39,480 nt of DNA from Planctomycetes bacterium HGW-Planctomycetes-1 (GTDB lineage Bacteria; Planctomycetota; Phycisphaerae; Sedimentisphaerales; UBA12454), in contig PGYD01000009.1 in NCBI GenBank assembly GCA_002839495.1, forward strand, positions 1 to 39,480. The letters run 5' to 3'. Numbering within the stretch: position 1 is the stretch's first letter; each line of letters opens with the position of its first letter. Of the stretch, positions 15,559 to 37,639 are shown piece by piece. The translations under genes and the position numbers were made by a program. The notes below the pieces were generated by a model. That model ran no database searches and was not told where the DNA came from. It saw only the letters and a program-made list of their open reading frames with translations.

Positions 15559-15704
15559 AAACGAAAATATCTGTTAATAAATTGAAAATATATAGTGGTA
15601 ATGGGTTATGGATGGCGCACGCCGACGGGGACGGAGTGTATTCATAACAAGCATTTTTGTTGGTTTTTGAGAGGTTTTAGCAACAAGTCTTATAAATACG
15701 ATAG

Positions 15705-17341: not shown

Positions 17342-17354
17342 GAAAGGGGATTGA

Positions 17355-19138: not shown

Positions 19139-19172
19139 ATTGAGATTTGTTTTTCTGCCGGATTAAACTGAA

Positions 19173-20075
19173 ATGCCGATATTATCAGTAGCAGTGATAT
19201 GCAATAGGAAAGCCGAGAAAGCACAAACGATTATTTCTCTAGTACAAGCCTTCAGGAATAATCCAACAGCTTTTAAAACATTTAAACTTGTTATTTATGA
19301 TAACAGTTTGGATAGTCAGGTATTGCCTTTAGACATACCGTTTCCATGCGAGTATAAACACGATCCAAAGAATGGCGGACTTGCCGCCGCTTATAATTAT
19401 GCGCTGCAGCGGGCCGTAGCGGATGGCTATGACTGGCTGTTGCTTTTTGACGACGATACTTCTGTTCCTGTTGATTTTATAGAGAAATTCGACAGAATCT
19501 CGTCTAAGGTGTCGGATGAGATTGCTGCAATAGTGCCGAAAGTTTATTATAAGGGACGTTATTTTTCTCCTTATAAGGTTTTGTTCGGAGATATTCACAG
19601 GCCGGTTGATGAAAATTCAACAGGGATATGCAATTACGAGATTTCCGCGGTTGGTTCAGGAACTATGCTGAAAACATCGTTTATGCAGAATATAGGCGGA
19701 TTTAATGAGACTTTTTGGCTGGACTGTCAGGACAGTTGGATTTTTCGTTCGATATATCTAAAAGGCAGGAAAGTTTATATTGCGCCCGTGAAGATAGAGC
19801 ACGAGCTTTCAATTTTTGATTATGACAAATTTATGTCGGCAGAGAGGTATCTCAATACTCTTAAATACGAAGCGTTATTTATTCGCTCTTACAAAACAAA
19901 ACTGGAAAATCTTTTTTATCCAATACGGCTTATCAAAAGAACAATAATACTATTTTTTACTGTGAAGAATAAAAGGTATTCCATGATGACATTTAAGCAT
20001 ATGTTGACCTGGATATTTAATCCGGACAAATGCTGTAAAGTTTTGAAAAAAAGTCCCTCTGTTCTAAAGCAATAA
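19173..20075 (+). CDS. GT2 family glycosyltransferase (rhamnosyltransferase-like)
   Basis: Transfers a sugar from a nucleotide donor to the growing lipid-linked unit, on the cytoplasmic face. Seen: a GT-A fold start with short strands (LSVAVICNRK, KLVIYDNS), the NGGLAAAYNYAL motif found in RfbF/WbbL-type enzymes, the metal-binding LLFDDDTS (D93-D95), and an acceptor-region SAVGSGTML followed by GFNETFWLDCQDSW. Length 300. No clear ribosome-binding site precedes the ATG. The sugar transferred cannot be read from sequence. Confidence 0.87.
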   Translation: MPILSVAVICNRKAEKAQTIISLVQAFRNNPTAFKTFKLVIYDNSLDSQVLPLDIPFPCEYKHDPKNGGLAAAYNYALQRAVADGYDWLLLFDDDTSVPVDFIEKFDRISSKVSDEIAAIVPKVYYKGRYFSPYKVLFGDIHRPVDENSTGICNYEISAVGSGTMLKTSFMQNIGGFNETFWLDCQDSWIFRSIYLKGRKVYIAPVKIEHELSIFDYDKFMSAERYLNTLKYEALFIRSYKTKLENLFYPIRLIKRTIILFFTVKNKRYSMMTFKHMLTWIFNPDKCCKVLKKSPSVLKQ

Positions 20076-20087
20076 AAGGTTTGTTAA

Positions 20088-21329: not shown

Positions 21330-22512
21330 ACCGTTTATATCTTTTGGTCAAATGCCGATTGCAAACGGGTTTTTAACTCGTGAGCAGTTTGCAGATGAAT
21401 ACTTTTTTGAGCTTCAGGCGGCCTTTTGTGCAAACTGTACTATGGTTCAACTGATTGACCAACCGGAACCCCAAAAAATGTTTCACGAAAATTACGCTTT
21501 CTTTTCCAGCACATCTAAAAGAATGGCAGTTCATTTCGAGGAATTTGCCAATCACGTCAAAAAAGATTATCTGACATCATCGAATCCTTTTGTTGTAGAA
21601 CTTGGATGCAATGACGGCATTATGCTTCAGCATTTCGCCAATTCAGGCATAAAGCATCTTGGCATCGAACCTTCGGTGAATGTAGCCAGGGTAGCAAATG
21701 AAAAAGGCGTTCAGACAATTTCTGAGTTTTTTAACGAAAGTACGGCTAAAGATATTCTCGGTAAGTACGGACAAACAGATGCGTTTTTGGCGGCAAACGT
21801 AATGTGTCACATTGCCGATTTCAATTCGGTGATTGCGGGGATAAAGATGCTTGTCAATCCGGATGGAATCGTAATGTTTGAAGACCCGTATCTGGGAGAT
21901 GTCATTGAAAAAACTTCTTATGACCAGCTTTACGATGAACATGTTTTTTTGTTTTCGCTCTCTTCCATTAAATACGCGTTCGAACAGTATGATATGGAAC
22001 TGGTTGATATCGAACCGCAGGGTACCCACGGCGGCTCTATGCGGTATATCATAGCGCACAAGGGCGCCAGACTGGTATCGAAAAATGTATATACTCAACT
22101 GGAAAAAGAAAAAGAGATGAAATTGAATAAAGTGGAAACATATAATGTTTTCCGTAAGAATTGTGAAAAATCCCGAGACAGCTTAAAACAATTGCTGGTC
22201 GATATTAACAAACGCGGTAAACGTGTAGTCGGATATGCGGCAACATCGAAAAGTACGACAATCCTGAATTATTGCGGAATCGGTCCGGATTTAATAGAAT
22301 TTATCAGCGATACGACTCCGATTAAGCAGGGCAAATTCAGTCCCGGAATGCATATTCCAGTTCGTGCTTATGAAGAATTTATGGCAAAATACCCTGATTA
22401 TGCCGTACTCCTGGCGTGGAATCACGGGGAAGAAATTATGGACAAAGAAAAACAGTTTAAAGCGGCCGGCGGCAAATGGATTATCTTTGTGCCGGAAGTC
22501 AAGGTGGTATAA
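21295..22512 (+). CDS. Zinc-finger class I methyltransferase (sugar C-methyltransferase type)
   Basis: Resembles the NDP-sugar C-methyltransferases such as TylCIII/TcaB9, which methylate C-3 of a keto-sugar. Seen: an N-terminal Cys4 zinc site ([10 protein letters not shown], then FCANCTMVQ), a SAM-binding core [15 protein letters not shown], the family-typical [20 protein letters not shown] and HVFLFS stretch with the proposed catalytic residues, and a C-terminal Rossmann-like domain ([15 protein letters not shown]). Start taken at ATG 21295; a GTG two codons earlier is possible. It overlaps the polymerase by 35 bases and abuts the aminotransferase with TAATG. Confidence 0.87.
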
Positions 22513-23612
22513 TGACTATTTTATGTGCGAATCCTTTATTGCAATATCAGTCATATAAAGAGGAAATCGACGAGGCGATTGCACGTGTTTTGGCCGGCGG
22601 AAGATACGTTCTCGGTTCGGAAGTCAAGGCGTTCGAAGAAGAATTTGCCGATTATATAGGCGTCTCCTGCGGCGTTGGCGTCGGCAGCGGAACAGAGGCT
22701 CTTCATCTCGCATTGGCGGCGTGCGGTGTAACGGCAGGAGATGAGGTTATTACGGTTTCACATACAGCAGTTGCAACCGCAGCGGCAATTAGATTGGCCG
22801 GAGCTGTTCCCGTATTTGTAGATATCGAACCGAATTACTACACGCTTGACCCGGCAAAATTAGAGACTGCGGTCACCCCGAAAACCAAGGCCATTATTCC
22901 GGTTCATATTTACGGCCAGCCGGTTAATCTTGACCCGATTATCGAATGTGCGAAAAAGCATAAACTGTTTGTTATTGAGGATTGTGCACAGGCTCACGGA
23001 GCAGTGTATAAAAACAAGCGTGTCGGTTCTTATGGTGATATGGCCTGCTTTAGTTTTTATCCTACCAAAAATCTGGGAGCTATAGGCGATGGCGGAATGG
23101 TTGTAACAAATCAGCCGGAACTGGCGGGAAAAGTGAAACTGCTGCGGGAATACGGTTGGGCTCAGCGGTACGTCAGCCATACTGATGGCTGGAATAGCCG
23201 GCTGGACGAATTGCAGGCTTCGATATTACGTGTAAAGCTGCGTTATCTGGATGCGGATAATGCCAAACGTATAAAACTGGCAGGGCTGTATCATAAAGAA
23301 CTGTCAAAATTGAATGGTTTGTCTTTGCCGATAAAACGTGAAAATGCAACTCATATATTTCATCTCTATGTAGTAAGATTAAAAAAAAGAGATGAATTGC
23401 GGAATTACTTAAAGGAACATCAGATTAATACTTTGGTACATTATCCGGTGCCGATTCACCGGCAGCCGGCATATAACAAAGGTCAAAAACTTGCGGTGAC
23501 GGAAAGCATAGCAAAGGAAATTTTGTCTCTGCCGATGTATCCGGAACTTAAGCAATCAGAACTGGAAACTGTCGTTAGTGCAATACGAACCTATATGACG
23601 GAGAAATTATGA
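22512..23612 (+). CDS. DegT/DnrJ/EryC1 aminotransferase
   Basis: PLP-dependent sugar aminotransferase that puts an amino group on a keto-sugar nucleotide. Seen: 366 residues, [16 protein letters not shown] (PLP phosphate region), [24 protein letters not shown], and the Schiff-base lysine K186 in [15 protein letters not shown]. Start at ATG 22512 overlaps the previous stop (TAATG); an in-frame ATG 12 codons upstream lies inside that gene and is less likely. The stop overlaps the next ATG (ATGA). With its neighbours it points to an amino sugar. Confidence 0.94.
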
Positions 23613-24067
23613 TTGACGGAGTTATATTTAAGGACTTGACTACCTGGGGCGACCAGAGAGGCTTTTTCAGGGAAATCATTCGTTCTACGGACGATTTTTT
23701 TGACTGCGGATTTGGTCAATGGAGTCATTCGTTGATGTTTAACGGCGTTATAAAAGCCTGGCATTTTCATAATATTCAAACGGATTTTTTCTATGTGTGC
23801 AGCGGTGTGGCTCGTATCGGGTTATGCGATTTACGGCCAAAATCCCGAACATATAATGAAGTAATGGATTTTTTTATGGGAGACTATCAGCCTGCACGCA
23901 TTGTGAAGATACCGCCCGGTGTAGCGCATGGCGTAAAGGCGATACAGGGACCGGTTAATCTGTTTTATATTACCTCGCATATATATAATCCGCAGGACGA
24001 AATCCGTATCGCGTACGATGACCCGAAGATTGATTTTGACTGGCTCAAAGACGCTCCAATTAAGTAG
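23609..24067 (+). CDS. RmlC/WxcM-like cupin (NDP-sugar epimerase or isomerase family)
   Basis: A 152-residue cupin of the dTDP-4-dehydrorhamnose 3,5-epimerase superfamily. Seen: [12 protein letters not shown] near the N-terminus, the strand with [17 protein letters not shown], the [11 protein letters not shown] loop and a C-terminal acidic tail. It is shorter than typical RmlC (about 180). The first His motif reads WHFHNIQ instead of RGLHYQ, so simple 3,5-epimerase activity is uncertain. A 3,4-ketoisomerase or single-site epimerase is possible. It overlaps the aminotransferase by four bases and so is translated with it. Confidence 0.82.
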
Positions 24068-24083
24068 TTTAGAATTAACCGTT

Positions 24084-25073
24084 ATGACAGAACTCTTCGA
24101 AAGCAATATTATAAAGACTTTTAGCGGCAAACAGGTGCTGATTACCGGCGGTGCCGGTTATATTGCGACAAAACTGGTTCAATTACTCAGGAACGTGGAT
24201 TGCCGTATAATTCGTCTTGATAGGCCGGATGCAGTCTTTTCTGGTGTGGAAGGCAAAGCTCGGATTGACAATATCTCCGGCGATATTCGAGTCAGTGATG
24301 TATGGGGGAAGGTATTGGACAAAACGGATTTTGTTTTCCATTTTGCCGCTCAGACGAGTACCTATACTGCCAATGAAAATCCTGTCGCCGATGCGGAAAT
24401 CAATGTTTCTCCAATGCTTAATTTGCTCGAAACCTGCCGTAAAAAGAAGACAAAACCGATAGTATTATTTTCAAGTACGGTAACGGTAATAGGACTGCCG
24501 AGTAAATTACCGGTCGATGAAAATTGTACTGGCGAACCTGTTACTGTTTACGACCTTCATAAGCTGATTGCCGAAAAATATCTTAATTATTATATAAGTC
24601 AGGGTGCTGTGAGCGGGGCGATTTTGAGGCTTTCGAATGTTTACGGTCCCGGTCCGAAAAGCAGCAAATCCGACCGCGGCATACTGAATTTAATGATTCG
24701 CAAGGCATTGGCCGGAGAAACATTAACCGTCTATGGGCAGGGTGATTATCTGCGTGATTATGTTTACGTTGAGGATATTGCCCGTGCATTTATAATGGCT
24801 GCGATAAATATCAAAAATACTAACGGCAGATATTTTGTAATCGGCAGCGGACAAGGGCATACTATTACCGAAGCTGTTAATCTTGTCGCCGACCGGACAG
24901 CGATAAAAACAGGCCGACGCGTTGATGTAATACAGATTGAACCCCAATCACCGCAGTCTCCTATCGAGATGCGTAATTTTGTTGCGGATTCCGGACAGTT
25001 TTCAACCGCAACCGACTGGAAAGCCGATGTCTCTTTAATCGAAGGAATTGACCGTACAATAGAAAGTTATTAA
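24084..25073 (+). CDS. NAD-dependent epimerase/dehydratase (SDR), first of three
   Basis: Extended short-chain dehydrogenase acting on a nucleotide sugar. Seen: VLITGGAGYIATKLVQLL Rossmann loop, VFHFAAQTSTY, the Ser region LFSSTVTV, catalytic Y156-x3-K160 in YDLHK, RLSNVYGPGP, and the YGQGDYLRDYVYVED region typical of UDP-glucose 4-epimerase and dTDP-glucose 4,6-dehydratase relatives. Start is ATG 24084; an in-frame ATG at 24018 would overlap the cupin gene by 50 bases and add 22 residues before the Rossmann strand. Length 329. Exact reaction is not decidable from sequence. Confidence 0.87.
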   Translation: MTELFESNIIKTFSGKQVLITGGAGYIATKLVQLLRNVDCRIIRLDRPDAVFSGVEGKARIDNISGDIRVSDVWGKVLDKTDFVFHFAAQTSTYTANENPVADAEINVSPMLNLLETCRKKKTKPIVLFSSTVTVIGLPSKLPVDENCTGEPVTVYDLHKLIAEKYLNYYISQGAVSGAILRLSNVYGPGPKSSKSDRGILNLMIRKALAGETLTVYGQGDYLRDYVYVEDIARAFIMAAINIKNTNGRYFVIGSGQGHTITEAVNLVADRTAIKTGRRVDVIQIEPQSPQSPIEMRNFVADSGQFSTATDWKADVSLIEGIDRTIESY

Positions 25074-25085
25074 GGAATGCCTAAT

Positions 25086-26096
25086 ATGGAAACGATTTCT
25101 GCTCAAAAATTGCCGAGTTTAAAAGGGAAAAAGGTCTTGATTCCGGGAGGTTTGGGATTTATCGGGAGCAACCTTGCTCATAAATGTCTCGAACTCGGTG
25201 CGAAAGTTTCCATATATGATTGTCTGAATCCGCGTTCAGGGGGAAATTTGTATAATATCAGCGATATTCGTGATTCGGTCGAATTATGTTATCACGATAT
25301 AGAGGATTTCGACCGTTTGTGCCAGCACGTTTGCGGTAAAGATATCATTATTAATTGTGCGGCATCGACATCTCATCCTTTCTCTATGAGAGAACCATGG
25401 CTTGATATTGACGTTAATAGTACGGCGACGATTAATCTTCTGGAGGCGATAAGACGGTTCAATCGTGATGTTCGGCTTATCCATCTCGGTACAAGCACCC
25501 AGTTAGGCAAACTGCAATATCAGCCTGCGGACGAAAAGCATCCGGAATTTCCGACTGATATCTATTCAGCGAATAAGAGCGTATCTGAAAAATATGTACT
25601 GATTTACGCCAAAGCGCATAAACTTCGGGCTACCGTGGCAAGATTGTCTAATGTCTTCGGGCCAAGAGCGTGTATTAATAGTCCGGAATTTACCTTTAAT
25701 AATTATTTTATCGGGTTGGCATTGCAAGGCAAAGATATAACAGTATTTGGGAAAGGCAATCAGAAAAGAAATGTTATTTATATTGAAGATGTTTTGTCGG
25801 CACTTATCCTTTTATGCAGCCAGGATGATGGGACAGGGGAGACTTTTTTTGTGGTTGGCGACCAGCATTGGAGCGTTGCCCAGATTGCTGAAGCTACGGT
25901 CGAGTATATCGGTTCCGGAAAAGTTAAATTTATCGACTGGCCGAAAGAAAGAGAAGTTGTTGATTTCGGAGATGCTGTCATTAGTAACCAGAAGATTAAA
26001 AATGCGCTTAATTGGGCGCCGCAATATGACTTAAAGGCCGGTTTGTTGAAAACAAAAGAATATTATAAATCTTGCTTGAAAGAATATTTGAGGTAG
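25086..26096 (+). CDS. NAD-dependent epimerase/dehydratase (SDR), second of three
   Basis: Extended SDR paralogous to its neighbours. Seen: KVLIPGGLGFIGSNLAHK, INCAASTSHPFSMREPW, LGTSTQLGKL, catalytic Y160-x3-K164 in YSANKS, RLSNVFGPRA, and FGKGNQKRNVIYIEDV. The ATG at 25086 is chosen because AAGGA (25072-25076) lies 9 bases before it; the ATG at 25077 abuts that site too closely. Length 336. It follows the first SDR after 12 bases. It is likely a 4-epimerase, 4,6-dehydratase or 4-ketoreductase in the same sugar pathway; choice between these is inference. Confidence 0.87.
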   Translation: METISAQKLPSLKGKKVLIPGGLGFIGSNLAHKCLELGAKVSIYDCLNPRSGGNLYNISDIRDSVELCYHDIEDFDRLCQHVCGKDIIINCAASTSHPFSMREPWLDIDVNSTATINLLEAIRRFNRDVRLIHLGTSTQLGKLQYQPADEKHPEFPTDIYSANKSVSEKYVLIYAKAHKLRATVARLSNVFGPRACINSPEFTFNNYFIGLALQGKDITVFGKGNQKRNVIYIEDVLSALILLCSQDDGTGETFFVVGDQHWSVAQIAEATVEYIGSGKVKFIDWPKEREVVDFGDAVISNQKIKNALNWAPQYDLKAGLLKTKEYYKSCLKEYLR

Positions 26097-26100
26097 GAAT

Positions 26101-27051
26101 ATGAAACTCGTAGTTGCCGGCGCCTTGGGGCATATCGGTTCTGCAGTGATTCGGCAAGTGCCGCTGGAATTGGGCATAACTGAAATTGTAATGATTGATA
26201 ATATGATGACTCAGCGGTATTGTTCTTTGTTTAATCTTCCGGAAGGCGTGAAGTATCGGTTTATTGAAGCGGATTTACTGAATATAGACCTGCAATCTGT
26301 TTTTAGTGATGCCGATATAGTCATCCAGTTGGCTGCAATTACGGATGCTGCGGGAAGTTTTGCGAATAAAAAACAGGTTGAGCATAATAATTACAACACG
26401 ACCGTAAAAGTCGCCGAGGCGTGCAGTAAGGCCGGCTGCAGAATGGTACATTTATCTTCTACCAGTGTATATGGTACACAAAAAGAAATAGTTGATGAAA
26501 ATTGTTCACCCCAGGAGCTTTGTCCGCAGAGTCCTTATGCTGAAACCAAGCTTAAGGAAGAGCAATTTCTTCAGCAATTGGGAGTGTCGGAGAATCTGGA
26601 TTTTATAACTTTCCGGTTCGGGACCATTTGCGGGGTTTCTCCGGGAATGCGTTTTCATACCGCGGTCAATAAGTTTTGCTGGCAGGCTGTAATGGCTCAG
26701 CCAATAACCGTTTGGCGCACGGCTTTGAATCAGAAAAGGCCTTATCTTGACCTTGATGATGCTGTGGAAGCGATAAGATTTGTAATTGAGCGAAACTTAT
26801 TTGACAAGCGTATATATAATGTCTTAACGGAGAATTTAACAGTACACTCTATAGTCGAGGATATTCGAAAATATATTCCGCAGATAGACATTAAATATGT
26901 AGATTCAGAAATTATGAACCAACTGTCTTACAATGTTTCTGACCAGCGTTTCAGATCTATGGGATTTACACCTCAGGGAAGCATTAGCGAAAAAATCAGG
27001 GAAACGATTGATTTGCTCAAAGGCTGTACCGGCGGCAGATGCAAAATTTAA
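26101..27051 (+). CDS. NAD-dependent epimerase/dehydratase (SDR), third of three
   Basis: Extended SDR, more diverged than the other two. Seen: LVVAGALGHIGSAVI (a GxxGxxG variant), IVIQLAAITDAAGSF, HLSSTSVYG, catalytic Y146-x3-K150 in SPYAETK, FRFGTICGVSPGMRFH, and a PYLDLDDAV region. The segment CGVSPGMRFHTAVNKF resembles SDRs of the GDP-sugar or CDP-sugar reductase type. Length 316. It starts 4 bases after the second SDR and is followed by a probable terminator. Confidence 0.85.
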   Translation: MKLVVAGALGHIGSAVIRQVPLELGITEIVMIDNMMTQRYCSLFNLPEGVKYRFIEADLLNIDLQSVFSDADIVIQLAAITDAAGSFANKKQVEHNNYNTTVKVAEACSKAGCRMVHLSSTSVYGTQKEIVDENCSPQELCPQSPYAETKLKEEQFLQQLGVSENLDFITFRFGTICGVSPGMRFHTAVNKFCWQAVMAQPITVWRTALNQKRPYLDLDDAVEAIRFVIERNLFDKRIYNVLTENLTVHSIVEDIRKYIPQIDIKYVDSEIMNQLSYNVSDQRFRSMGFTPQGSISEKIRETIDLLKGCTGGRCKI

Positions 27052-27071
27052 TACTGTAAGGAAAGTTAATG

Positions 27072-27111
27072 GCGTGGAGGAAGAGCAAGTTTCGTTTTTT
27101 CCTCCGCTTTT
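27072..27111 (+). terminator. Probable intrinsic terminator after the SDR block
   Basis: GCG(T)GGAGGAA (27072-27082) pairs with TTCCTCCGC (27099-27107), a 9-bp stem with one bulged T and a 16-base loop. It is directly followed by TTTT. It lies in the 72-base gap between the third SDR and the next glycosyltransferase, which suggests a transcript end or processing point inside the locus. Confidence 0.5.
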
Positions 27112-27123
27112 GTCATAAAAGAT

Positions 27124-28194
27124 ATGGAATCCGAAACAAAAAAAGCTCCGTTTTTCTCTATCGGCATACCTACTTATAATCGGGTAGATATGCTAAAACA
27201 ATGTCTTTTGTCGATTTTAGGGCAGACATTTACGGATTTTGAAATTATTGTGGGTAATGATTATACGAAGCATACGCTTTCCGGCAGAGATTTTGGCATC
27301 GAAGATGCTCGGATTCAATTTGTCAATCATACTCGTAATCTTGGCGAAATCGAGAATATGAACTCTTTGCTGCAGGTTAGCCGCGGCCGTTATTTTACAT
27401 GGCAGTTTGATGATGATATATATTCACCGGATTTTCTCCAATCGGTTTATTTGTCACTGATGCAATTTGGCAAACCTAAATGTGTTTATACTACCTATGG
27501 CTATATTTGGGAGACTTCTTTTCCAAAGATTAATAGAAGAACTTTAGAAACAGGTAAGGTTCTTACCGGACGGAAATTTCTTCGGGAGTATTTGTCAGGT
27601 CGATTGAAAGTCCTGGGGTGCTGTGGTGTTTTTGACTCACAGTACCTTAAGCAGACAGGCGGAGTGCATAAACTTTGTGATAGCCCCGTAGGAGCTCATT
27701 CAGAGCATTTTATCGCTATTCGGATGGGATTATTAGATAAAATTGCATATATAAACAGGCCTCTGGTTCTGTATCGCAATCATGAAGAGTCATGGTCGTA
27801 TAAAACTAAGGATGCGGATATATATAAGCAGGCCGGGAAGAATTTTTTACGTGAGACTATTAACGTTTTGATACAGCCTGCACTGCGAGATGATTTTAAA
27901 CAGAATTTTTCCAGCGTTGTAAAGCTGTCTGTAAATATTATCCTTGGAAAAATGATTGTTCGTGATGGGTATCTCAAAAAAGACGAACTTCAACAATATA
28001 TTTTTTCGCTTAAGCGATTATTTGATGTTATAAAAGAACCTGTGCTTTACGAGATAGCGATGAGTTGTTTGCAGCGAGTTGAAAGGGGAAATAGGATATT
28101 GGCGGTGATAAAGGCAAAATTTAAGGCTTCTATGCCGTATTTTCTTGTAAAATTTGCGCATATAATTCGGGCCGTTGTTTCGCGATACAAATAA
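27124..28194 (+). CDS. GT2 family glycosyltransferase
   Basis: GT-A fold transferase of the glycan locus. Seen: FFSIGIPTYNRVDMLKQCLL at the N-terminus, QTFTDFEIIVGND, the metal-binding FDDD (D96-D98), and a downstream helical region to the C-terminus with a hydrophobic end (AHIIRAVV). Length 356. There is no obvious ribosome-binding site before the ATG, though the terminator-like hairpin lies just upstream. Twenty bases separate it from the anchored protein at 28215. Confidence 0.86.
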   Translation: MESETKKAPFFSIGIPTYNRVDMLKQCLLSILGQTFTDFEIIVGNDYTKHTLSGRDFGIEDARIQFVNHTRNLGEIENMNSLLQVSRGRYFTWQFDDDIYSPDFLQSVYLSLMQFGKPKCVYTTYGYIWETSFPKINRRTLETGKVLTGRKFLREYLSGRLKVLGCCGVFDSQYLKQTGGVHKLCDSPVGAHSEHFIAIRMGLLDKIAYINRPLVLYRNHEESWSYKTKDADIYKQAGKNFLRETINVLIQPALRDDFKQNFSSVVKLSVNIILGKMIVRDGYLKKDELQQYIFSLKRLFDVIKEPVLYEIAMSCLQRVERGNRILAVIKAKFKASMPYFLVKFAHIIRAVVSRYK

Positions 28195-28214: not shown

Positions 28215-29702
28215 ATGAATTTTAATCACTTTTTTAAAATTTCAGCAAATGTTTGCAGGATATTGCTTCTGCTGATGTCTCTTATCGCTTTATTTACATT
28301 ATATGTTTGGTCTACCAAAAGCCCAAGGATTGATACATTTGGCGATTATTTTTTTATTAGATATTATAAACATTTTGACAGAAGATTCAGCAATGCCATT
28401 GATACTCTGAAAGTAAATGAAGATAAGGGTATTGCAATGCTTGAAAAGCTGATGAGCGACCTCGAATCTATTCAGAAATTAGACTGTCTGGACCATATAA
28501 AGCGAGAAGGAATGAAAATGCTGTCAGGAATTTTTGAAAAGCGAAGCAATCTGGATGGGGCGATGAAATGGGCAGACAAATGGGTAGATTTCGACGATAA
28601 AGACCTTTATGGTCAGGTGCATAAAGCGAGGTTAATGTGTCAAATTGCAGATAGTAGAAATGCAGGGAAACAGCTTTTGGCGAATCTTTACCAAAAAGTT
28701 CCTGAGGCAAAGGTTGTTGTAAATGCGTATTCGCAAATGCAAATAGCAGACGGCAATTCCGGCGAAGCACTCTGGGCGCAACTGCGATTGTTAAACTTTC
28801 AAAAAAGATTGATGTCGCAAAAATGGGAAATTTACTGGACGTTCTCTGATGTATTTACGCCGGAGGATAGCCGAAAGGTTATTCCTTCGGTGGATAATAA
28901 TAGTATTTTATCATTAGTTTTCGACGTTCCGCAGGGCATAAGAAAAATGCGTCTCGATATCCCGCCTTCTGCAGAATTTTTGATGTCATATCCGACTCTT
29001 ACGATTAAAAACGGAGAAGATTTTACAGAATTAGAACTTTGGAAGTTTAATTTGAAAATGTACGATATACTCCAAAATAATCATATTCTTGAGGTAATAC
29101 AGGGCGAAGATTCTTACTTTTACTGGGAGATGCCGGAAAGAACAATTGAAGCGTCAGGTTCTTTTATCTTTAAGACCAACGTATTTCATAAAATCAATAA
29201 AGTTTTGCTGCAGTTGTACACTTCGGAGTCCATAAGGTCACTGAAGAGAGAAATAGCTGACAGAGGCGACGCCGAGATTGCAGATATTTTTTCCAATATA
29301 AAACCGGACATTTTAGCCAATTCTTCAGTAGACATTTATTGGTCTTATCAACAGAATGTTTTTTCTGAGGTTCGAAAGAACTCGGTCCTTCTAAGTGGCA
29401 GGAGAAATTTAAATAGGTTGATATTTGATGTTAATCTGCCATTGAACGATAAAGTATCGGAGTTGCGTATTGATTTTCCCGATGTGGTAGATACTCAATA
29501 TACTTTAGAAAAAATAGAGTATGTAATAGAGAACGAGTTGTACGAAATAGATGCCAGCCAAGCGGTATTGGTATCAAATCATAACTTGAAAAAACAAGGG
29601 AACCGGTTTGTTGTAATCGGTCAGGACCCTTATTTTTCTTTTAAATTGCCCGAAGGCCAAAGTTATATAACATCAGTACGCCTTAAAGGACTGGCTCAAT
29701 GA
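28215..29702 (+). CDS. Membrane-anchored protein with helical repeats and a duplicated beta-rich domain
   Basis: I do not recognise this as a named family. Seen in 495 residues: one N-terminal membrane helix (about 14-32), a helical TPR-like region (about 55-195), then two copies of a beta-rich domain, at about 203-335 and 372-491. The copies align: WEIYW with VDIYW, LVFDV with LIFDV, MRLDIP with LRIDF, DSYFYWEMPE with DPYFSFKLPE. The pattern resembles beta-sandwich domains attached to bacterial glycan-processing proteins; glycan binding is inference. Its stop overlaps the start of the CotH-type gene (ATGA), so the two are made together. Confidence 0.75.
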   Translation: MNFNHFFKISANVCRILLLLMSLIALFTLYVWSTKSPRIDTFGDYFFIRYYKHFDRRFSNAIDTLKVNEDKGIAMLEKLMSDLESIQKLDCLDHIKREGMKMLSGIFEKRSNLDGAMKWADKWVDFDDKDLYGQVHKARLMCQIADSRNAGKQLLANLYQKVPEAKVVVNAYSQMQIADGNSGEALWAQLRLLNFQKRLMSQKWEIYWTFSDVFTPEDSRKVIPSVDNNSILSLVFDVPQGIRKMRLDIPPSAEFLMSYPTLTIKNGEDFTELELWKFNLKMYDILQNNHILEVIQGEDSYFYWEMPERTIEASGSFIFKTNVFHKINKVLLQLYTSESIRSLKREIADRGDAEIADIFSNIKPDILANSSVDIYWSYQQNVFSEVRKNSVLLSGRRNLNRLIFDVNLPLNDKVSELRIDFPDVVDTQYTLEKIEYVIENELYEIDASQAVLVSNHNLKKQGNRFVVIGQDPYFSFKLPEGQSYITSVRLKGLAQ

Positions 29703-32494
29703 GAAAATATCTCGCATTTTTGTGGAAATGGAGCTGGGTTGTAACAGCCGTTATAACAGTAGTTTTTCTATATTGGACTATTGCTACAGCTAAACGTTAT
29801 TATGTTTTTAGAATAAGGTACAAATCCAATCTCGGATTGCAGGAAAGCGGTATAACTGAATTTCGCCATATGATGCGGCAGCAAAAAAATTTGTTTTCAG
29901 CATCGAGAAAGCTCGACGAAGCTGTTACTAATGGCTTGAGAAACATAAATCTTTTTGTTTCGGAAACTGATTTAGCGAAACTGAATTCTCACCTTCCGCA
30001 GTCTGGTTTTAAAGAAGTTAAGGGAAAACTATGGAACGGAGATAAATTGCTGAAAGTAAAAGTTAGATATCGTGGTGATTTTATAGCCCATTGGGGCTAT
30101 CACAAAAAATCCCTACGAGTAAAAACCACGAAAGAATCGCTCTTTGAAGGAATGCGTAAATTTAATTTAATAGCGCCAAAATTTAAAGCACAAATTAATA
30201 GTTATCTGGGATATAGATTAGCCCAGAGTATGGGATTAGTGGTGCCGAAAACCGAGATGGTAAATGTCCTGATAAACGGCAGATTGCAAGGGGTTTATAT
30301 ATTAGTAGAGCAATTAGAAGAAATTACATTGCGTCGCAACAATCTTCTTCCAGGCGACTTATATGCGGGGGAACTTCTGGCAGGCGATGGTTATACAGGG
30401 ATTTCTACCGAAGTTTTTGACCATCCAGGTGTTTGGGAAAAACAAGCTTTCGATAATAAATATCCGCCGGATTTTTATAAACCTTTGGCAAAGTTAACTG
30501 AATTAATAAATGCCAAATTTTCGGACAAGGTGCAAGATGAGCTGATTAAAATGCTTGATTTAGACGTTTGGGGCAGATTTGCCGTCTTTGAGACGCTTTC
30601 GCAAACGTTTCATTATGATAATACGCATAACTGGCGACTATATTATGACCCGGCCAGAGGTGTGTTTATTCCGGTGGTATGGGACCCTGTAAGCTGGGCA
30701 TGGTTAGCAGAACAGAAATGCGAGACTCAATTAGATATTATGTCCAGCAGATTACATAGCGTTCTGTTTAGAAATTATGATTTTCTTCGTGCTCGTCATA
30801 AGGCGATTGAAGATTTCTTTGATTCCGGGAAAGATAAGGATTTTTTAAAGGAGACTGATATGGCAATTTCGGTTGTAACTGCTGCGATTGATGATGACCC
30901 CGGTATTCGTTTCAGTCAGTCTGATATTATTAAAGCTATGAAAGAACTAAGAGGGGCTATTGAAAAAATATTCTCCGATATAAAAGAAGAATATCTTGCT
31001 GATAATAGCCCAATAACCTATTTTTCTGATAGCAATAACTCTTTGACGGTTTCGTTATCGGGCCGATGCCCTGTGGAATGTTTATTATTGCATTATTTAT
31101 TGCCTCCAAGCAATCCTGTTTCTGTAAAGGTGCGATATTTTCAAAATGGACAGAGTGTAGAGAAAAATATCTCTGGTGCAGTTTCTGTTAATGGTAATTT
31201 TTTGGAGATTTCAACCGTTCTGCTCCCTCGATTTTCGGTAGCATTTAGACCAAGCCATTTTTTGATGTCAACTACTCTGGATGTACAACCGGCATCTTAT
31301 GAATTTTTGCTGACAGGACTATCTGATGACAACCGGCTTCTCGATGTATTTGCTGATAGAGGGAGTGTACGGCATCAAAAAGTACAAAAATCTCATACAA
31401 TAAAATTCTGTGAATTTAATGGGGTTTATAATATTATTTCTTCTAAACCGGTTAAGCAGGCTCAAATATGGCGAGAAGATGTGGAAATTGATGGTTTTAA
31501 AGAAGTGTATGATGATGTTATTATCGAACCCGGAACTACGATAAAGCTTAAAGCAGGAGCAACCCTTATTATTTACGGTCGTTTTTTAGCAGAAGGGACG
31601 TTGAAAAAACCTATATGTTTTATACCTTTTGAGCAACATCAGGAACCATGGGGTTCGGTAGTGCTGTTTGGAAGCGGAGCAAACGATTCAAAGTTAAGCT
31701 ATTGTGAGTTTGCAGGCGGGAGCGGGGTGGAAGGAGACTTGTTGGGATATTCCGCGATGTTTTCTTTGCGTAGTGTTTCAGGAATTGAAGTCAAACACTG
31801 TTTGTTTAGAGACAATAAAATTTTTGATGATATGGTACATTCAGTCTATTCAGAAGTTTATTTTTCAAATTGTAAATTTCTGCGAGCGGCATTTGATGCA
31901 TTTGATTCGGATATTGGTAAGAGTGTCATAGAAAATTGTCTATTTGTGGATAGTGGTAATGATGCTATAGATGCAATGACATCAGAAGTAGTGGTAATCA
32001 ATACCTTACTTCAAAATAGCGGCGATAAAGGCATATCTGTCGGCGAGAAAAGTAAGGTGTTGGCAATAAATACCCAGTTTGTTAATAATAATATTGGCCT
32101 TCAGTCTAAAGATGATTCAATTGCGGTGCTGTGTAACGTTGATATGAGAGATAACTTACAGGCATTGGATGCATATATGAAAAACTGGCGTTATGGCAGA
32201 GGCGGGGACATCTTTCTATATAAAGGCTGTCTTGTCGATAACAAACAGAAGATAACTGCGGATAAAAAATCAGGCATTTGGATTTATGATACCTATATGA
32301 CCAGTGATTTAACTTCTGCAAATGCAAATATTATTTTAGATTCCACTGTTGATTCAAAAGATGAGAGAAAAGCCGAGTCACCGCAGATGTGGCGTTTTCC
32401 CCGGGAAATAGACGTTATGAAAAAGTTCGATCCCTATTGGCGAGAAGCAGATGCCGCCAGAAGAGGAGCCGCTGGCCTTGCAGCCTTTAATTAA
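29699..32494 (+). CDS. Membrane-anchored CotH-type kinase fused to a right-handed beta-helix
   Basis: The CotH family includes spore-coat protein kinases with an atypical fold. Seen in 931 residues: a membrane helix at about 10-28, a CotH domain at about 60-400 (VKVRYRGDFIAHWGYHKKS, then VYILVEQLEEITLRRNNL, HYDNTHNWRLYYDP, FIPVVWDP), a linker with beta strands, and from about 620 to 870 short repeats such as FVDSGNDAIDAM, LQNSGDKGISVG and FVNNNIGLQSKD typical of a parallel beta-helix. The CotH active site should lie outside the cytoplasm given the N-terminal anchor. Its end overlaps the VTC gene by 44 bases. Substrate unknown. Confidence 0.88.
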   Translation: MRKYLAFLWKWSWVVTAVITVVFLYWTIATAKRYYVFRIRYKSNLGLQESGITEFRHMMRQQKNLFSASRKLDEAVTNGLRNINLFVSETDLAKLNSHLPQSGFKEVKGKLWNGDKLLKVKVRYRGDFIAHWGYHKKSLRVKTTKESLFEGMRKFNLIAPKFKAQINSYLGYRLAQSMGLVVPKTEMVNVLINGRLQGVYILVEQLEEITLRRNNLLPGDLYAGELLAGDGYTGISTEVFDHPGVWEKQAFDNKYPPDFYKPLAKLTELINAKFSDKVQDELIKMLDLDVWGRFAVFETLSQTFHYDNTHNWRLYYDPARGVFIPVVWDPVSWAWLAEQKCETQLDIMSSRLHSVLFRNYDFLRARHKAIEDFFDSGKDKDFLKETDMAISVVTAAIDDDPGIRFSQSDIIKAMKELRGAIEKIFSDIKEEYLADNSPITYFSDSNNSLTVSLSGRCPVECLLLHYLLPPSNPVSVKVRYFQNGQSVEKNISGAVSVNGNFLEISTVLLPRFSVAFRPSHFLMSTTLDVQPASYEFLLTGLSDDNRLLDVFADRGSVRHQKVQKSHTIKFCEFNGVYNIISSKPVKQAQIWREDVEIDGFKEVYDDVIIEPGTTIKLKAGATLIIYGRFLAEGTLKKPICFIPFEQHQEPWGSVVLFGSGANDSKLSYCEFAGGSGVEGDLLGYSAMFSLRSVSGIEVKHCLFRDNKIFDDMVHSVYSEVYFSNCKFLRAAFDAFDSDIGKSVIENCLFVDSGNDAIDAMTSEVVVINTLLQNSGDKGISVGEKSKVLAINTQFVNNNIGLQSKDDSIAVLCNVDMRDNLQALDAYMKNWRYGRGGDIFLYKGCLVDNKQKITADKKSGIWIYDTYMTSDLTSANANIILDSTVDSKDERKAESPQMWRFPREIDVMKKFDPYWREADAARRGAAGLAAFN

Positions 32495-33221
32495 TTTACA
32501 TTTTGCAAGATTCGAATTTAAGTATATTCTGCGGGAGCAATCCCGAAAGAGTGTGGAAAAAGAACTGCAGTATTTTATGGAACTGGACCCGTTTGTAAAT
32601 AATGAATTGAAACGCTGTTATTTTGTGCGCAGTTTATATTTTGACGATCCTTATTTTTCCTGTTATCATGATAAAATAGACGGTCTTCATAAAAGATATA
32701 AGTTTAGACTTAGAACTTATGCAAAAAATTATTATGAATCTGCTCAGGGTTTTGTGGAAATAAAAGGACGATTCGACCAGCTTGTATTTAAGCACCGTAC
32801 CCCGTATAAGTTGAGCAGTTCTGATGTGAATACGGATGCTTCACAACTTGCCTTAAAAATGCTGGAAACATCTCCTGAAACGGCTGTTACCAACCAGTTT
32901 TATTACGAACTTTATCGTAAACGGATTAGACCAGTAGTTTTGGTTGATTATTTTCGCAGGCCATATATAAGTAAATACGATTCGGAATTTAGATTAACAT
33001 TTGATGATAGAATAGAAGCAACGCCTTCTACAAGCCTGTTTCCCATAAACGGTTCGCCAAAAGCGGTTATTCCGGGTTATGTTGTTATGGAAGTCAAATT
33101 CCACCACAAATTACCGGCATGGTTTCACAGCATTATAAAGAATTATGAGCTGCAGAGAGTATCAGTTTCCAAGATGTGTAAAGGTGTTGAGGCATGCGAG
33201 TTGATAAAAAACGGAATGTAA
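32451..33221 (+). CDS. VTC-domain protein (polyphosphate polymerase family)
   Basis: Related to the catalytic tunnel domain of the yeast vacuolar transporter chaperone Vtc4, which makes polyphosphate from ATP. Seen: RFEFKYIL, VRSLYFDDPYF, KRYKFRLRTY, FVEIKGRF, VLVDYFRRPYIS, RLTFDDRI and VVMEVKFHHKLPAWF, which carry the basic tunnel residues and metal-binding Glu of the family. Length is 256 from the ATG at 32451, which lies inside the CotH gene. A TTG at 32478 with GAGGAG upstream is an alternative start. In many bacteria this domain is adjacent to CotH and DUF4956 genes, as here. Confidence 0.9.
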   Translation: MPPEEEPLALQPLINLHFARFEFKYILREQSRKSVEKELQYFMELDPFVNNELKRCYFVRSLYFDDPYFSCYHDKIDGLHKRYKFRLRTYAKNYYESAQGFVEIKGRFDQLVFKHRTPYKLSSSDVNTDASQLALKMLETSPETAVTNQFYYELYRKRIRPVVLVDYFRRPYISKYDSEFRLTFDDRIEATPSTSLFPINGSPKAVIPGYVVMEVKFHHKLPAWFHSIIKNYELQRVSVSKMCKGVEACELIKNGM

Positions 33222-33261
33222 ATTGGCTATTTAATTCATAATAAATTTAAGGAGACTAAAA

Positions 33262-33945
33262 TTGGATAGTAAAATAGTTGAAGCAGCTGGCAGCTTTTTA
33301 GTTTATAGTTATCCGGAGATTATAATTAATATGGTGCTTGCTCTGATTTTGGGTATTGTCATCTCCGTAGTATACCGTTTTACACATACTGGCTTATCGT
33401 ATTCCCAGGCTTTTAACCAGACCATTATACTTCTCTCCGTTATTGTTTCAATTGTTATGATGGTGATAGGCTCAAGCTTGGCGAGGGCATTTGCTTTAGT
33501 AGGTGCTCTTTCAATAATTAGATTCAGGACGGCCGTTAAAGATGCGAAAGATATGGCTTATGTCTTTGCTTCTCTTACGGTTGGCATTTCGGCAGGAACA
33601 TCCAATCATTTCCTTGCGGTAAGCGCGACAGTATTTGTGTCGATTGTCGCAGTTGTTTTGTACAAATTGAATTATGGTGCTCTGTATAAAAGCGACTTTT
33701 TAGTGCGTTTTAGATTTGATCAGGATTATGACAGCCATGCTTATATTGAGGAAATACAAAAATTCAGTAAGCGGTCTAATCTTTTGCATATCGAACCCTC
33801 GGGTGATGGTAAAACGTTGAAACTTACGTATAACATAACGCTCAAGGACAATGAAACTGTTAATCATTTGGCAAAGTCACTAGGACGAGTTGAAGGAATT
33901 TCAGAAGTAGTTTTAATAGCATCGAAAAATGATATAGATTATTAA
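33262..33945 (+). CDS. DUF4956 membrane protein
   Basis: Unknown function; a frequent neighbour of VTC-domain and CotH genes. Seen in 227 residues: three to four hydrophobic helices (about 18-36, 52-75, 85-105, 108-130), the family hallmark FALVGALSIIRFRTAVKDAK with a basic stretch between helices, and a soluble C-terminal ferredoxin-like or ACT-like domain (residues about 145-225). Start is TTG at 33262 with AAGGAG 7 bases upstream; no ATG fits. It may act as channel, anchor or regulator for the polymerase, which is inference. Confidence 0.9.
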   Translation: MDSKIVEAAGSFLVYSYPEIIINMVLALILGIVISVVYRFTHTGLSYSQAFNQTIILLSVIVSIVMMVIGSSLARAFALVGALSIIRFRTAVKDAKDMAYVFASLTVGISAGTSNHFLAVSATVFVSIVAVVLYKLNYGALYKSDFLVRFRFDQDYDSHAYIEEIQKFSKRSNLLHIEPSGDGKTLKLTYNITLKDNETVNHLAKSLGRVEGISEVVLIASKNDIDY

Positions 33946-34003: not shown

Positions 34004-35485
34004 ATGAAAATTCTCCTGATAGATCCTCCTTTTTATAGAATCCTTGGTTTCTACAATCGGTATTTTCCTCTGGGCATAGTTACTATCGGCACTTTTCTTA
34101 AAGAAGCCGGATGTGAAGTTGTGCTTTACGATACCGATTATAATGAAAATCCCAAGTATATGGATTACTCACTTCTCCCGCAGTTTTATCCGGCATATCT
34201 TTCTTCTTTTAAGGATGAAAATCATCCTGTTTGGAAAGAAATCGCAGAAACTATCACACGTCTTTGTCCCGATATAATAGGCATATCTATCTGGACTACA
34301 TATGCAGCTTCTGCTTTTCATGTGGCCAAACTTAGCAAAGAGCTTGCTCCGGGTAGCTCTGTGGTTATGGGTGGGCCTCACGCTGCCGTTAAAGCCGATG
34401 AGATACTTAAAATATGTCCTGATGTTGACTATGTTGTACGGGGCGACGGGGAAGTGCCTATGCTTGAACTCGTGAGGCAGATTTCGTCGGGCCGGAGTGA
34501 TTTTTCATCAATAAAAGGATTATCATTTCGAGGAGAAAATTCAATAATACATAATCCCTCAGGTCAAACAATCAATGATTTGGAATTGCTTTCATTTCCA
34601 GATAGGTCGCTCCTGGTTAATGAGAGCAGATATACTGCGGAAGATATGGGACTTATTATGTCCAGCAGGGGGTGTCCATACGCCTGCTCGTATTGTGCCA
34701 CGCATACGCGTAGAGTAAATTATAGACCTATTGACAATGTAATAGATGAGATAAAGTTTGTGAAAGAAAAATATGGATCAGTATTGTTCTGTTTTAAGGA
34801 CGATTCTTTCACGGTAAATAAAAAAAGGGTCGAGCAATTTTGCGACAGACTTATTGCTGAAAAACTGAAAATTTGCTGGGAATGTAATACCCGAGTGGAT
34901 CTGATAGATAAGAATATTTTGCAAAAAATGGAAAAAGCAGGCTGCAGTAGTATTAAAGTCGGGATTGAGTCTGGAAGTGAGCGCATTTTGAAAAAGATGA
35001 ACAAGGGTATAACACTTAAACAGATTAAAATGGCTGCTGAATTGTTTAAAGAATCAGGAATTTTTTGGACAGGATATTTTATGATGGGAATTCCCGGTGA
35101 GACAGTCGATGAAATTTATCAAACACTAAACCTTATGTATGAAATTAAACCAGACTTTGCCTCTATTTCGGTATATGAACCTTTTCCGGGTACGGAAATC
35201 TTCTCCGAGGGGGTCGAAAGAGACCTGGTTAAACTGGAAATGACTTTGCAGGATTTTTATGTAACCCTGCCGAATGACTACTATAAACTGGATACGAAAA
35301 AACAGGTGGACACCATTGCTCAAGAGGAGTTCGCCGCTTTAGTGAAGATTATAAAAAATAAATTTCATATGCATAATAAAAATCTACAAAGAATTTGGCG
35401 AAGAGCTCAAAACAGGGTCGCTTTTTATGTTGTCCAACCCAAGATGCTTTGGTCAGATTTCAACAAGTATATGAGCTGGCGGTAA
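34004..35485 (+). CDS. B12-binding radical SAM protein
   Basis: Radical SAM enzyme with an N-terminal cobalamin-binding domain (class B type). Seen in 493 residues: the B12-domain segment with MGGPHAAVKADEIL and the DIIGISIWTT core, the iron-sulphur motif C224-x3-C228-x2-C231 (CPYACSYC), CFKDDSFTV, WECNTRVDLID, and IKVGIESGSERIL, typical of the family. These enzymes methylate or rearrange unactivated carbons. In this locus a methylated sugar or lipid is a reasonable guess, not shown. It follows DUF4956 after 58 bases. Confidence 0.9.
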   Translation: MKILLIDPPFYRILGFYNRYFPLGIVTIGTFLKEAGCEVVLYDTDYNENPKYMDYSLLPQFYPAYLSSFKDENHPVWKEIAETITRLCPDIIGISIWTTYAASAFHVAKLSKELAPGSSVVMGGPHAAVKADEILKICPDVDYVVRGDGEVPMLELVRQISSGRSDFSSIKGLSFRGENSIIHNPSGQTINDLELLSFPDRSLLVNESRYTAEDMGLIMSSRGCPYACSYCATHTRRVNYRPIDNVIDEIKFVKEKYGSVLFCFKDDSFTVNKKRVEQFCDRLIAEKLKICWECNTRVDLIDKNILQKMEKAGCSSIKVGIESGSERILKKMNKGITLKQIKMAAELFKESGIFWTGYFMMGIPGETVDEIYQTLNLMYEIKPDFASISVYEPFPGTEIFSEGVERDLVKLEMTLQDFYVTLPNDYYKLDTKKQVDTIAQEEFAALVKIIKNKFHMHNKNLQRIWRRAQNRVAFYVVQPKMLWSDFNKYMSWR

Positions 35486-35486
35486 T

Positions 35487-36374
35487 ATGATAACTCGTAA
35501 ACTTTCTATAATTGTTGTAAATTTCAATGCAGAAAAGTTTCTAAAAAAATGTCTCGCATCGATTTATGCAGAAACGAAGAACATATCTTTTGATGTTTGG
35601 GTCGTTGACAATAATTCATCGGATATGAGTGTGCCGATGGTACACCGTGATTTTTTGCAGGTCAATTTAATTGAAAACAAAGAGAATCTCGGTTTTGCGA
35701 AGGCCTGTAATCAAGCTATAATAAAATGTACTGGTGACTATATTCTTCTTTTAAATCCAGACACCTTGATTTTAGAAAGTGCGATTGAAAAAACGGTGAA
35801 ATTTATGGATGCCGACCCGACTATCGGGATTTGTGGTTGCAGAGTTCTAAATGAAGATATGACTCTGCAGCTTGCTTGTCGCAGAAGTATTCCAACTCCG
35901 GGTGTTGCTTTCTTTCGTCTTGCGGGGTTAAGCAAATTATTTCCGAAGAGTAAAATTATGGCAGAGTATAATTTGACATATTTAGACGAGGATAAAAATC
36001 AGCGGGTAGACGCTGTTTCTGGTGCTTTTTTGATGATGCGGAGAAATGTTATAGACAGCATTGGGTTGCTTGATGAAAGATTTTTTATGTACGGTGAAGA
36101 ATTAGATTACTGCATTAGAACGAAAGGAGCCGGCTGGAACATTATGTATTATTCAAACGCGAAAATTATTCATTACAAGGGCGAATGTAGTAAATATAAC
36201 AGCAGAAAAGCATTTTTGGAGTTTTATAGGTCTATGTATTTGTTTCATAAAAAGCATTTCGCCATTAATTATAACCCGATTATAAATATTATTATTTATA
36301 TCGGTATTGCCCTGAAAGCATTAACAGCACTCGGAGATTTTATATTTTTCGCTAAGGTAGGCTCTAAAAGATAA
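35487..36374 (+). CDS. GT2 family glycosyltransferase (WbbL-like)
   Basis: Resembles rhamnosyltransferases of the WbbL/RfbF group. Seen in 295 residues: LSIIVVNFNAEKFLKKCLAS, VWVVDNNSSDMSV, ENLGFAKACNQAI, the metal-binding LLLNPDTL, DAVSGAFLMMRR, and LDERFFMYGEELDYCIRTK. The start follows the radical SAM stop by one base (TAATATG). The hydrophobic C-terminus may attach it to the membrane. Donor sugar not readable. Confidence 0.92.
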   Translation: MITRKLSIIVVNFNAEKFLKKCLASIYAETKNISFDVWVVDNNSSDMSVPMVHRDFLQVNLIENKENLGFAKACNQAIIKCTGDYILLLNPDTLILESAIEKTVKFMDADPTIGICGCRVLNEDMTLQLACRRSIPTPGVAFFRLAGLSKLFPKSKIMAEYNLTYLDEDKNQRVDAVSGAFLMMRRNVIDSIGLLDERFFMYGEELDYCIRTKGAGWNIMYYSNAKIIHYKGECSKYNSRKAFLEFYRSMYLFHKKHFAINYNPIINIIIYIGIALKALTALGDFIFFAKVGSKR

Positions 36375-36382
36375 CTTTTAAT

Positions 36383-37639
36383 ATGCTTATACGAATAATC
36401 TTAATCTTAATAAATGCAATTCTGGTAAATGCCGGTTTTATTATTTCGTTTTTTGCGAGATATGGTATAAATATTCCATCGGTGGTCTTGCCACCATACA
36501 AAAGCAGTTTTGTGTTTTTGACACTTATAAATGTGTCAGCATTAGCTTTTTTTGGTGTTTATAAACACAGATTCAGATCTTCATGGGATTTATTCAGAAG
36601 AGTTTTCCTCGGTTTATTTTTTGGGACATTATTGAGCATTTCCTTCGTTTATGTATTCAGAGTCAAATGGGGAGCTTTCCCCACGACTATATTTATTATC
36701 TCCTTTTTTATTAATCTTCTTCTGATATTCAAGCTAAACCAGTCAATTTTAAAGGCCCGCAGGAGAATAAGAAAAAAAATCCTCGTTATAGGCGAAGGTG
36801 ATATAGAAGAAGTTATGATAACTCATGCCGATATGGAAAAATTCGGTATCGATAAGATTGAAAACCTCGCTAACTATACGGATGCTGATGAAATTGTCAT
36901 CTATGGGAAAATCCCAAACGAGAGAGACTTGGGATTTATAACCCATTTTGCACAAAAAATGAAGATAGAAGTGGTCTTTAGTCCTGCCTGTTATGTGAAA
37001 CTGCTGCCTGAAAGGATTAACGGCAATAATTTAACCCATTCATTAGCTACTTTTATCAGCCGAAAAAGAGAGGTTGAAGAAGTTGCAATGAGAAGCCTCG
37101 ACATCTTCGGCAGCATAATCATTGCGATTGTTTCTTTGCCGGCAACTATTCTTGCTGCCATATTGATTAAGCTCACTTCCACTGGTTCAATTTTTTACAA
37201 ACAGCAGCGTATCGGCAAAGATGGCAAAATTTTCACGCTCTATAAATTCAGAACGATGGCAAATGATGCCGAGAAGGAACTCGGACCTGTTCTGGCGACA
37301 GAGAACGACCCGCGAGTTACGAAAGTCGGCCGATTCCTGAGAGATACAAGACTCGACGAAATACCGCAATTGATAAATGTCCTGCTTGGTCAGATGAGTC
37401 TGGTTGGGCCAAGACCGGAGAGGCCATATTTTGTCAAACGCCATAACGTTCTTATGGGAATAAGGTTAGCTGTTAAGCCGGGGCTTACAGGGCTTGCACA
37501 GGTAAGAAATGCCTACGACTTACATCCCCAACACAAGATAAAATACGATTATTTATACATCCAGAGACGTTCTCTGTTTTTAAACCTCTATATTCTCGCA
37601 AAGACTATTCCGGTTATGCTGCTGAAAAAAGGGAGATAG
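36383..37639 (+). CDS. Undecaprenyl-phosphate sugar phosphotransferase (WbaP/WcaJ-like)
   Basis: Initiates repeat-unit assembly by moving a sugar-1-phosphate from a nucleotide sugar to undecaprenyl phosphate. Seen in 418 residues: an N-terminal block of about four membrane helices (residues 1-120), a Rossmann-like middle region (KILVIGEGDIEEV), a further helix, and the catalytic domain: GSIFYKQQRIGKDGKIFTLY, KFRTM, RDTRLDEIPQLINVL, MSLVGPRPERP, KPGLTGLAQV. The Asp-Glu pair of LDEIPQ is kept. It closes the + strand glycan locus and faces the GT39-like gene with only 23 bases between. Confidence 0.94.
   Translation: MLIRIILILINAILVNAGFIISFFARYGINIPSVVLPPYKSSFVFLTLINVSALAFFGVYKHRFRSSWDLFRRVFLGLFFGTLLSISFVYVFRVKWGAFPTTIFIISFFINLLLIFKLNQSILKARRRIRKKILVIGEGDIEEVMITHADMEKFGIDKIENLANYTDADEIVIYGKIPNERDLGFITHFAQKMKIEVVFSPACYVKLLPERINGNNLTHSLATFISRKREVEEVAMRSLDIFGSIIIAIVSLPATILAAILIKLTSTGSIFYKQQRIGKDGKIFTLYKFRTMANDAEKELGPVLATENDPRVTKVGRFLRDTRLDEIPQLINVLLGQMSLVGPRPERPYFVKRHNVLMGIRLAVKPGLTGLAQVRNAYDLHPQHKIKYDYLYIQRRSLFLNLYILAKTIPVMLLKKGR

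Follow-up and report, generated by a model that had tools for sequence, protein, structure and literature searches.

The locus described here raises the question of what joins a CotH-type protein, a polyphosphate polymerase, and a membrane protein of the DUF4956 family in a single block amid glycan genes. It lies in a stretch of 39,480 nucleotides from Planctomycetes bacterium HGW-Planctomycetes-1 (contig PGYD01000009.1, positions 1-39,480, forward strand; assembly GCA_002839495.1), hereafter the window. All four open reading frames of the block recognized in the initial annotation were found exactly at 28215-33945 on the plus strand, in the order ORF1, CotH-beta-helix, VTC, and DUF4956 (Table 1), and the CotH, Beta_helix, VTC, and DUF4956 domains each scored above the Pfam cut-off. 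Both overlaps from which co-translation had been proposed are present, a stop-start overlap of ORF1 and the CotH gene at 29699-29702 and one of 44 bases between the CotH and VTC genes. The DUF4956 gene starts with TTG, preceded by GGAG, and its relatives likewise encode 227 amino acids. The module has a G+C content of 37.6%; values are 38-40% for the glycan genes flanking it and 46.8% for the housekeeping part upstream.

Table 1. Genes of the module and, as context outside the module, the two parts of the surrounding glycan locus
Feature	Coordinates	Strand	Domains or content
ORF1, 495 aa	28215..29702	+	membrane helix, TPR, two beta-sandwich domains; no Pfam/NCBIfam match
CotH-beta-helix, 931 aa	29699..32494	+	CotH PF08757 E 9e-24; Beta_helix PF13229 2e-8
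VTC-type polyphosphate polymerase, 256 aa	32451..33221	+	PF09359 E 4e-36
DUF4956 membrane protein, 227 aa	33262..33945	+	PF16316 E 2e-17
Glycan locus 5' part	14350..28194	+	Wzz-like, flippase, CDP-alcohol phosphotransferase, methyltransferases, GT2s, Wzy candidate, sugar-nucleotide enzymes
Glycan locus 3' part	34004..37639	+	B12-binding radical SAM protein, GT2, bacterial sugar transferase

The module is conserved. With the window VTC protein as query, GTDB contigs yielded 14 loci, among them ones of Desulfobacterales, Gammaproteobacteria, and Roseovarius, and profiles run on all open reading frames found the complete gene order in 10 of them, Proteobacteria included (L002-L006, L008, and L011-L014). 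Two genomes from other families of the window's phylum also carry the complete module (L024 and L025). Recurrence of the identical order in unrelated phyla puts the block far outside what chance would produce. Identity to the window proteins is 44-53% for VTC, 53-63% for DUF4956, and 30-49% for full-length CotH relatives. VTC was present in 103 of 392 genomes of the window's phylum; 60 regions fetched from this phylum, together with the scan loci, gave 68 VTC-DUF4956 loci, a sample in which the broad coverage is of one phylum, loci were partly chosen by score, and gene calls were mechanical.

Tree and distribution point to horizontal spread. In a tree of 74 VTC domains, the window-type VTCs form one clade (support 1.0), apart from the VTCs of the window's own order, which sit in a distant clade (L034, L035, L037, L041, L046, and L048); thus, the module was probably acquired horizontally. 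Vertical inheritance is unlikely, considering that only the window genome among seven genomes of its genus has VTC and that full-length relatives were found in only two other sampled genomes of its phylum. Variants of the arrangement occur within the window-type group. In L002 (5421-13726), CotH and VTC are separated by genes for a GT2, a NapC-type cytochrome, and a GMC oxidoreductase; downstream of DUF4956 come genes for a TPP enzyme and an Fe-alcohol dehydrogenase, which may be phosphonate-related. L015 (10031-10765) has a window-clade VTC with no CotH, ORF1, or DUF4956 gene within the surrounding 20 kb.

The window VTC protein is cytosolic, lacks a membrane helix, and is encoded by the sole VTC gene of the genome. 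Its profile matched yeast Vtc4 structures at 2e-5. The initial annotation had made its proposal depend on the basic residues of the VTC tunnel, and the alignment finds them in place: K24, R86, K105, R169, R181, D185, E214, K216, and K241 (window numbering) are invariant in 74/74 VTCs. By alignment, this set includes the equivalents of the Vtc4 active-site residues R264, R361, R373, E426, K428, and K458; window R88, equivalent to Vtc4 R266, is arginine or lysine in all 74 VTCs. Yeast VTC has been inactivated by mutation of R264, R266, and E426 (PMC9911596). Judged by these residues, the window protein is probably an intact polyphosphate polymerase that would synthesize polyphosphate from ATP. 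As no match to PPK1 or PPK2 was detected in the window genome (assembly ~94% complete), VTC may be the only polyphosphate polymerase of this bacterium. Yeast VTC couples synthesis to translocation, and basic residues line the channel through which the chain passes (PMC9911596). The bacterial system would share with this complex the polymerase domain, the catalytic residues, and the proposed coupling of synthesis to membrane passage, but it lacks both the SPX domain and the Vtc1-type membrane domain; the membrane part would here be DUF4956, for which no relation to Vtc1 is known.

The stable core of the module is the VTC-DUF4956 pair. Both genes co-occur in the 68 surveyed loci, usually ~100 bases apart by domain ends. 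In most loci DUF4956 comes immediately after VTC, on the same strand. Planococcus, Pseudobutyrivibrio, Paenibacillus, Acetoanaerobium, and Nonomuraea have the pair as well. DUF4956 consists of membrane helices and a cytosolic ACT-like C-terminal domain (AlphaFold2 pLDDT 73, moderate confidence), and an R87-F88-R89 motif is invariant in 65/65 sequences. Compared with the PDB, the model matched only in its ACT-like part, with no match below E 0.001. We propose that DUF4956 may be a polyphosphate translocase. Its weak profile match to MgtC and its ACT-like domain count against this and would suit a regulator. They would fit a control of phosphate status, in which polyphosphate synthesis is set by DUF4956 as an MgtC/ACT-type sensor, with CotH as a surface protein of separate function, as would the role in phosphate metabolism suggested for related genes in Streptococcus intermedius (PMC12345266). 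Such control leaves the direct association of DUF4956 with HlyD and TolC genes and the swapping of partner proteins, both described below, unexplained, and we consider it quite improbable. A DUF4956 gene also occurs on Sinorhizobium meliloti pSymA (L088, 6308-8678), 65 bases after a caspase-domain (Peptidase_C14) gene and with no VTC detected nearby.

The window CotH protein begins with a signal anchor, followed by a CotH-type domain (residues ~90-440) and a right-handed beta-helix (~600-870). The match of its profile to Bacillus cereus CotH (5jd9) at 1e-18 assigns it to the CotH fold. Asp228 of Bacillus subtilis CotH is catalytic, and the D228Q variant is inactive (PMC7821199). Depending on the alignment method, this residue aligns to H305, D307, or T303 of the window protein. 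The window protein itself has aspartate at 307, but no aspartate is conserved at these positions among beta-helix CotHs, in which His305 is conserved instead (13/15 window-type and 15/16 others). The likeness to the Bacillus spore-coat kinase (5jd9; PMC7821199) lies in the fold, the asparagine, and the second aspartate: Asn311 and Asp329 are kept in all window-type CotHs, with Asp329, the equivalent of Asp251, present in 15/15, and across beta-helix CotHs Asn311 is retained and Asp329 mostly so. Many secreted CotHs retain a D-[GS] motif at the site of the catalytic aspartate. Of the surface-facing, phosphorylating role suggested in the initial annotation, the extracytoplasmic placement of the CotH and beta-helix parts stood, whereas phosphorylation is in doubt owing to the missing canonical aspartate, and kinase activity of the window CotH should not be assumed.

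The loss of the catalytic aspartate would also suit an explanation in which CotH-beta-helix is a non-catalytic binder or adhesin and VTC is a triphosphate tunnel enzyme of other activity, for example, a tripolyphosphatase, given that the tunnel residues are shared across a wider superfamily. The VTC domain, however, matches Vtc4 in particular, and the retention of Asn311 and Asp329 throughout the window type speaks against a non-catalytic CotH. This combination appears very improbable to us.

For ORF1, a duplicated beta domain had been proposed. The duplication holds (residues 204-325 and 371-494), but the N-terminal membrane helix and the periplasmic TPR domain (~residues 36-200) had been missed as the conserved part: the N-terminal part is conserved in 10 loci, and the beta domain varies between zero, one, and two copies. 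An AlphaFold2 model (pLDDT 83) comprises a long N-terminal helix, the TPR domain, and two beta-sandwich domains, and its compact Foldseek matches are TPR proteins. Beta domains of this type are also inserted in the CotH proteins of L006, L014, and L007; none was found in the neighboring glycosyltransferases. We propose ORF1 as a putative periplasmic scaffold of the module.

Extracytoplasmic partners of the VTC-DUF4956 pair are exchanged between loci. They comprise the anchored beta-helix CotH (30 loci), secreted CotH without a beta-helix, and an HlyD-family adaptor (22 loci). In 22/53 VTC-DUF4956 loci of other than the window type, the HlyD gene directly follows DUF4956. The HlyD-containing similarity cluster was built without positional information, and all its members adjoin DUF4956; its identity as HlyD was confirmed by Pfam directly for four cluster proteins and, in the tally, for 8 of the 100 neighbors. 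HlyD was found in 0/30 loci with beta-helix CotH versus 22/38 others (Fisher 1e-7) and, leaving aside the window type, in 0/15 versus 22/38 (Fisher 9e-5), values that overstate the contrast, as related loci are counted as independent and HlyD loci mostly fall in one clade of the VTC tree. Where the N-terminus was readable, the CotHs of HlyD loci mostly carry a cleavable signal peptide; secreted CotHs without HlyD exist in some loci.

An OEP/TolC gene comes after HlyD in L034, L035, L037, L046, and L048, and a CotH gene then follows in L034 and L046. In L034, the five genes follow one another head to tail, overlapping or separated by <40 bases, and a giant protein combines CotH with lamin-tail domains. 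Tight VTC-DUF4956-HlyD-TolC operons span L034:1431-10492, L035:9619-14103, L046:9651-19901, and L048:5908-10402, and Hymenobacter has a DUF4956-TolC arrangement. As in tripartite HlyD-TolC exporters, adaptor and outer membrane channel genes are thus combined, here directly after DUF4956. Unlike in such exporters, no other inner membrane transporter (ABC, RND, or MFS pump) was encoded in the closest HlyD operons read, so that DUF4956 occupies the position of the transporter; the window module itself has neither HlyD nor TolC. A limited literature search retrieved no paper joining VTC domain, HlyD, and polyphosphate and no report of VTC-DUF4956-HlyD-TolC operons. In a further exchange of partner, in Paenibacillus cellulosilyticus (L089, 6174-9592), VTC-DUF4956 is followed by a Cthe_2159-type carbohydrate-binding surface protein replacing CotH.

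Does the module act on the glycan of the surrounding locus? That the surroundings are a glycan locus was borne out, with strong matches for flippase and sugar-phosphate transferase and Wzz above the cut-off; the Wzy candidate scored slightly under it (30.1 versus 31.7 bits). The module might be a glycan-modification set, in which CotH phosphorylates the surrounding Wzx/Wzy polymer or polyphosphate is grafted onto it. It is co-directional with the glycan genes, separated by 20 bases from the GT2 gene ahead of it and by 58 from the gene that follows, and beta-helices often bind linear polysaccharides. Glycosyltransferases flank the module in 4/15 relatives only (L002, L005, L006, and L007), and L012 has a Wzt-type ABC gene nearby. 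Gram-positive relatives are found in Pel loci (PMC7112168) and also, on Pseudobutyrivibrio and Planococcus plasmids, in an EPS-type cluster and near a glycosyltransferase, respectively. However, the check named in the initial annotation, whether related genomes carry the module away from glycan genes, went largely against the link: the neighborhood survey showed no regular association, most complete modules lacked such genes nearby, and complete modules stood away from them in L003, L008, L011, L013, L014, L024, and L025. The module adjoins a DEAD helicase and a sigma-54 regulator in L003, a chemoreceptor in L008, 5'-nucleotidase and LysR genes in L011, and GH3 and lytic transglycosylase genes in L014; in L013, a locus of the cultured Roseovarius aestuarii KCTC 22174, it adjoins genes for a TPP enzyme and an ABC transporter. 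Likewise, glycosyltransferase matches were few among 100 neighbors of other VTC loci, most of which lack them. A fixed link to Wzx/Wzy loci is therefore rejected as a general rule, and modules of this class are not bound to glycans. In addition, the module probably entered by horizontal transfer, and loci of the kind that received it exchange genes often. A role as a glycan-modification set thus appears unlikely to us, also in view of the Pel data discussed below. As Gram-positive sets recur beside polysaccharide genes, the substrate in this particular genome may nevertheless be the glycan of the surrounding locus.

Further features of the window were noted. The CDP-alcohol phosphotransferase encoded in the glycan locus (17355-18092) is a candidate enzyme for adding phosphodiesters to the glycan without the module. 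A tRNA-Leu gene (39288-39373) overlaps the listed N-terminus of a minus-strand PMT-type ORF (37663-39366), so that the true start of the latter lies further in. An 824-amino-acid ORF between PgpA and purA (675-3149) has no Pfam match.

CotH-VTC-DUF4956 sets are known from Gram-positive Pel loci (PMC7112168). These Pel accessory genes, cotH-polyphosphate polymerase-DUF4956(-DUF4832), have three adjacent families in common with the window (PMC7112168, PMC12345266), namely secreted CotH, the polymerase, and membrane DUF4956 with an ACT domain. Differences are the FN3 domain of the Pel-set CotH, as opposed to the beta-helix, the signal anchor, and the lack of a conserved catalytic aspartate in the window type, and the additional TPR/beta-sandwich gene ahead of CotH in the window module. 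PelF and PelG were sought in the window genome and not found; membership in a Pel locus is rejected for this genome, while the adjacency of CotH, VTC, and DUF4956 itself is the same. Synteny of the three genes was reported not to be found outside Pel loci (PMC12345266), to which the loci described here are counter-examples. In S. intermedius, single deletions still permitted Pel production, which increased upon loss of the DUF4956 gene and decreased upon loss of the CotH gene, and deletion of the VTC gene had no reported effect on Pel (PMC12345266). This independence of Pel production from the set speaks against glycan modification.

Taken together, we suggest that VTC-DUF4956 might be a polyphosphate synthase-translocase with exchangeable extracytoplasmic partners, a chain of steps modeled from sequence and gene order to which, as a whole, we give an even chance. 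In the cytosol, VTC would use ATP to polymerize polyphosphate; DUF4956 would guide the chain across the inner membrane, so that the chain or its phosphoryl groups would reach the periplasmic face. There, the CotH-beta-helix protein, anchored and associated with the TPR protein ORF1, would receive polyphosphate and modify a periplasmic or surface substrate. ATP is absent outside the cytosol, and polyphosphate would replace it there as donor. In HlyD-type loci, HlyD-TolC would carry the polymer out. In favor of this reading are the invariant tunnel residues matching Vtc4, the lack of a PPK1/PPK2 match in the genome, the position of DUF4956 immediately behind VTC in most loci, and its invariant RFR motif. 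Further points in favor are the HlyD(-TolC) genes directly after DUF4956, the Hymenobacter arrangement, the exclusion of HlyD from loci with anchored beta-helix CotH, the mostly cleavable signal peptides of HlyD-locus CotHs, and the Paenibacillus surface protein. Against the synthase-translocase stand the effects of the S. intermedius deletions on Pel (PMC12345266), the beta-helix CotHs without the canonical aspartate, the secreted CotHs without HlyD, the pSymA DUF4956 without a detected VTC, and a literature in which we found no biochemistry on these bacterial proteins as a complex.

It is tempting to speculate further that VTC and DUF4956 constitute a dedicated bacterial polyphosphate export, joined either to HlyD-TolC for release or to a periplasmic CotH-beta-helix protein using polyphosphate instead of ATP as phosphoryl donor, a possibility that we put forward tentatively. 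The ATP source of CotH was described as an unanswered question (PMC7821199), and, if true, one mechanism would explain both this source and the role of the bacterial VTC-DUF4956-CotH sets. Polyphosphate pushed out by VTC-DUF4956 would then energize extracellular phosphate chemistry, and the pair would be to bacteria what the VTC translocase is to eukaryotes, though with another membrane protein. On this reading, DUF4956 becomes accessible to direct tests as a polyanion channel.
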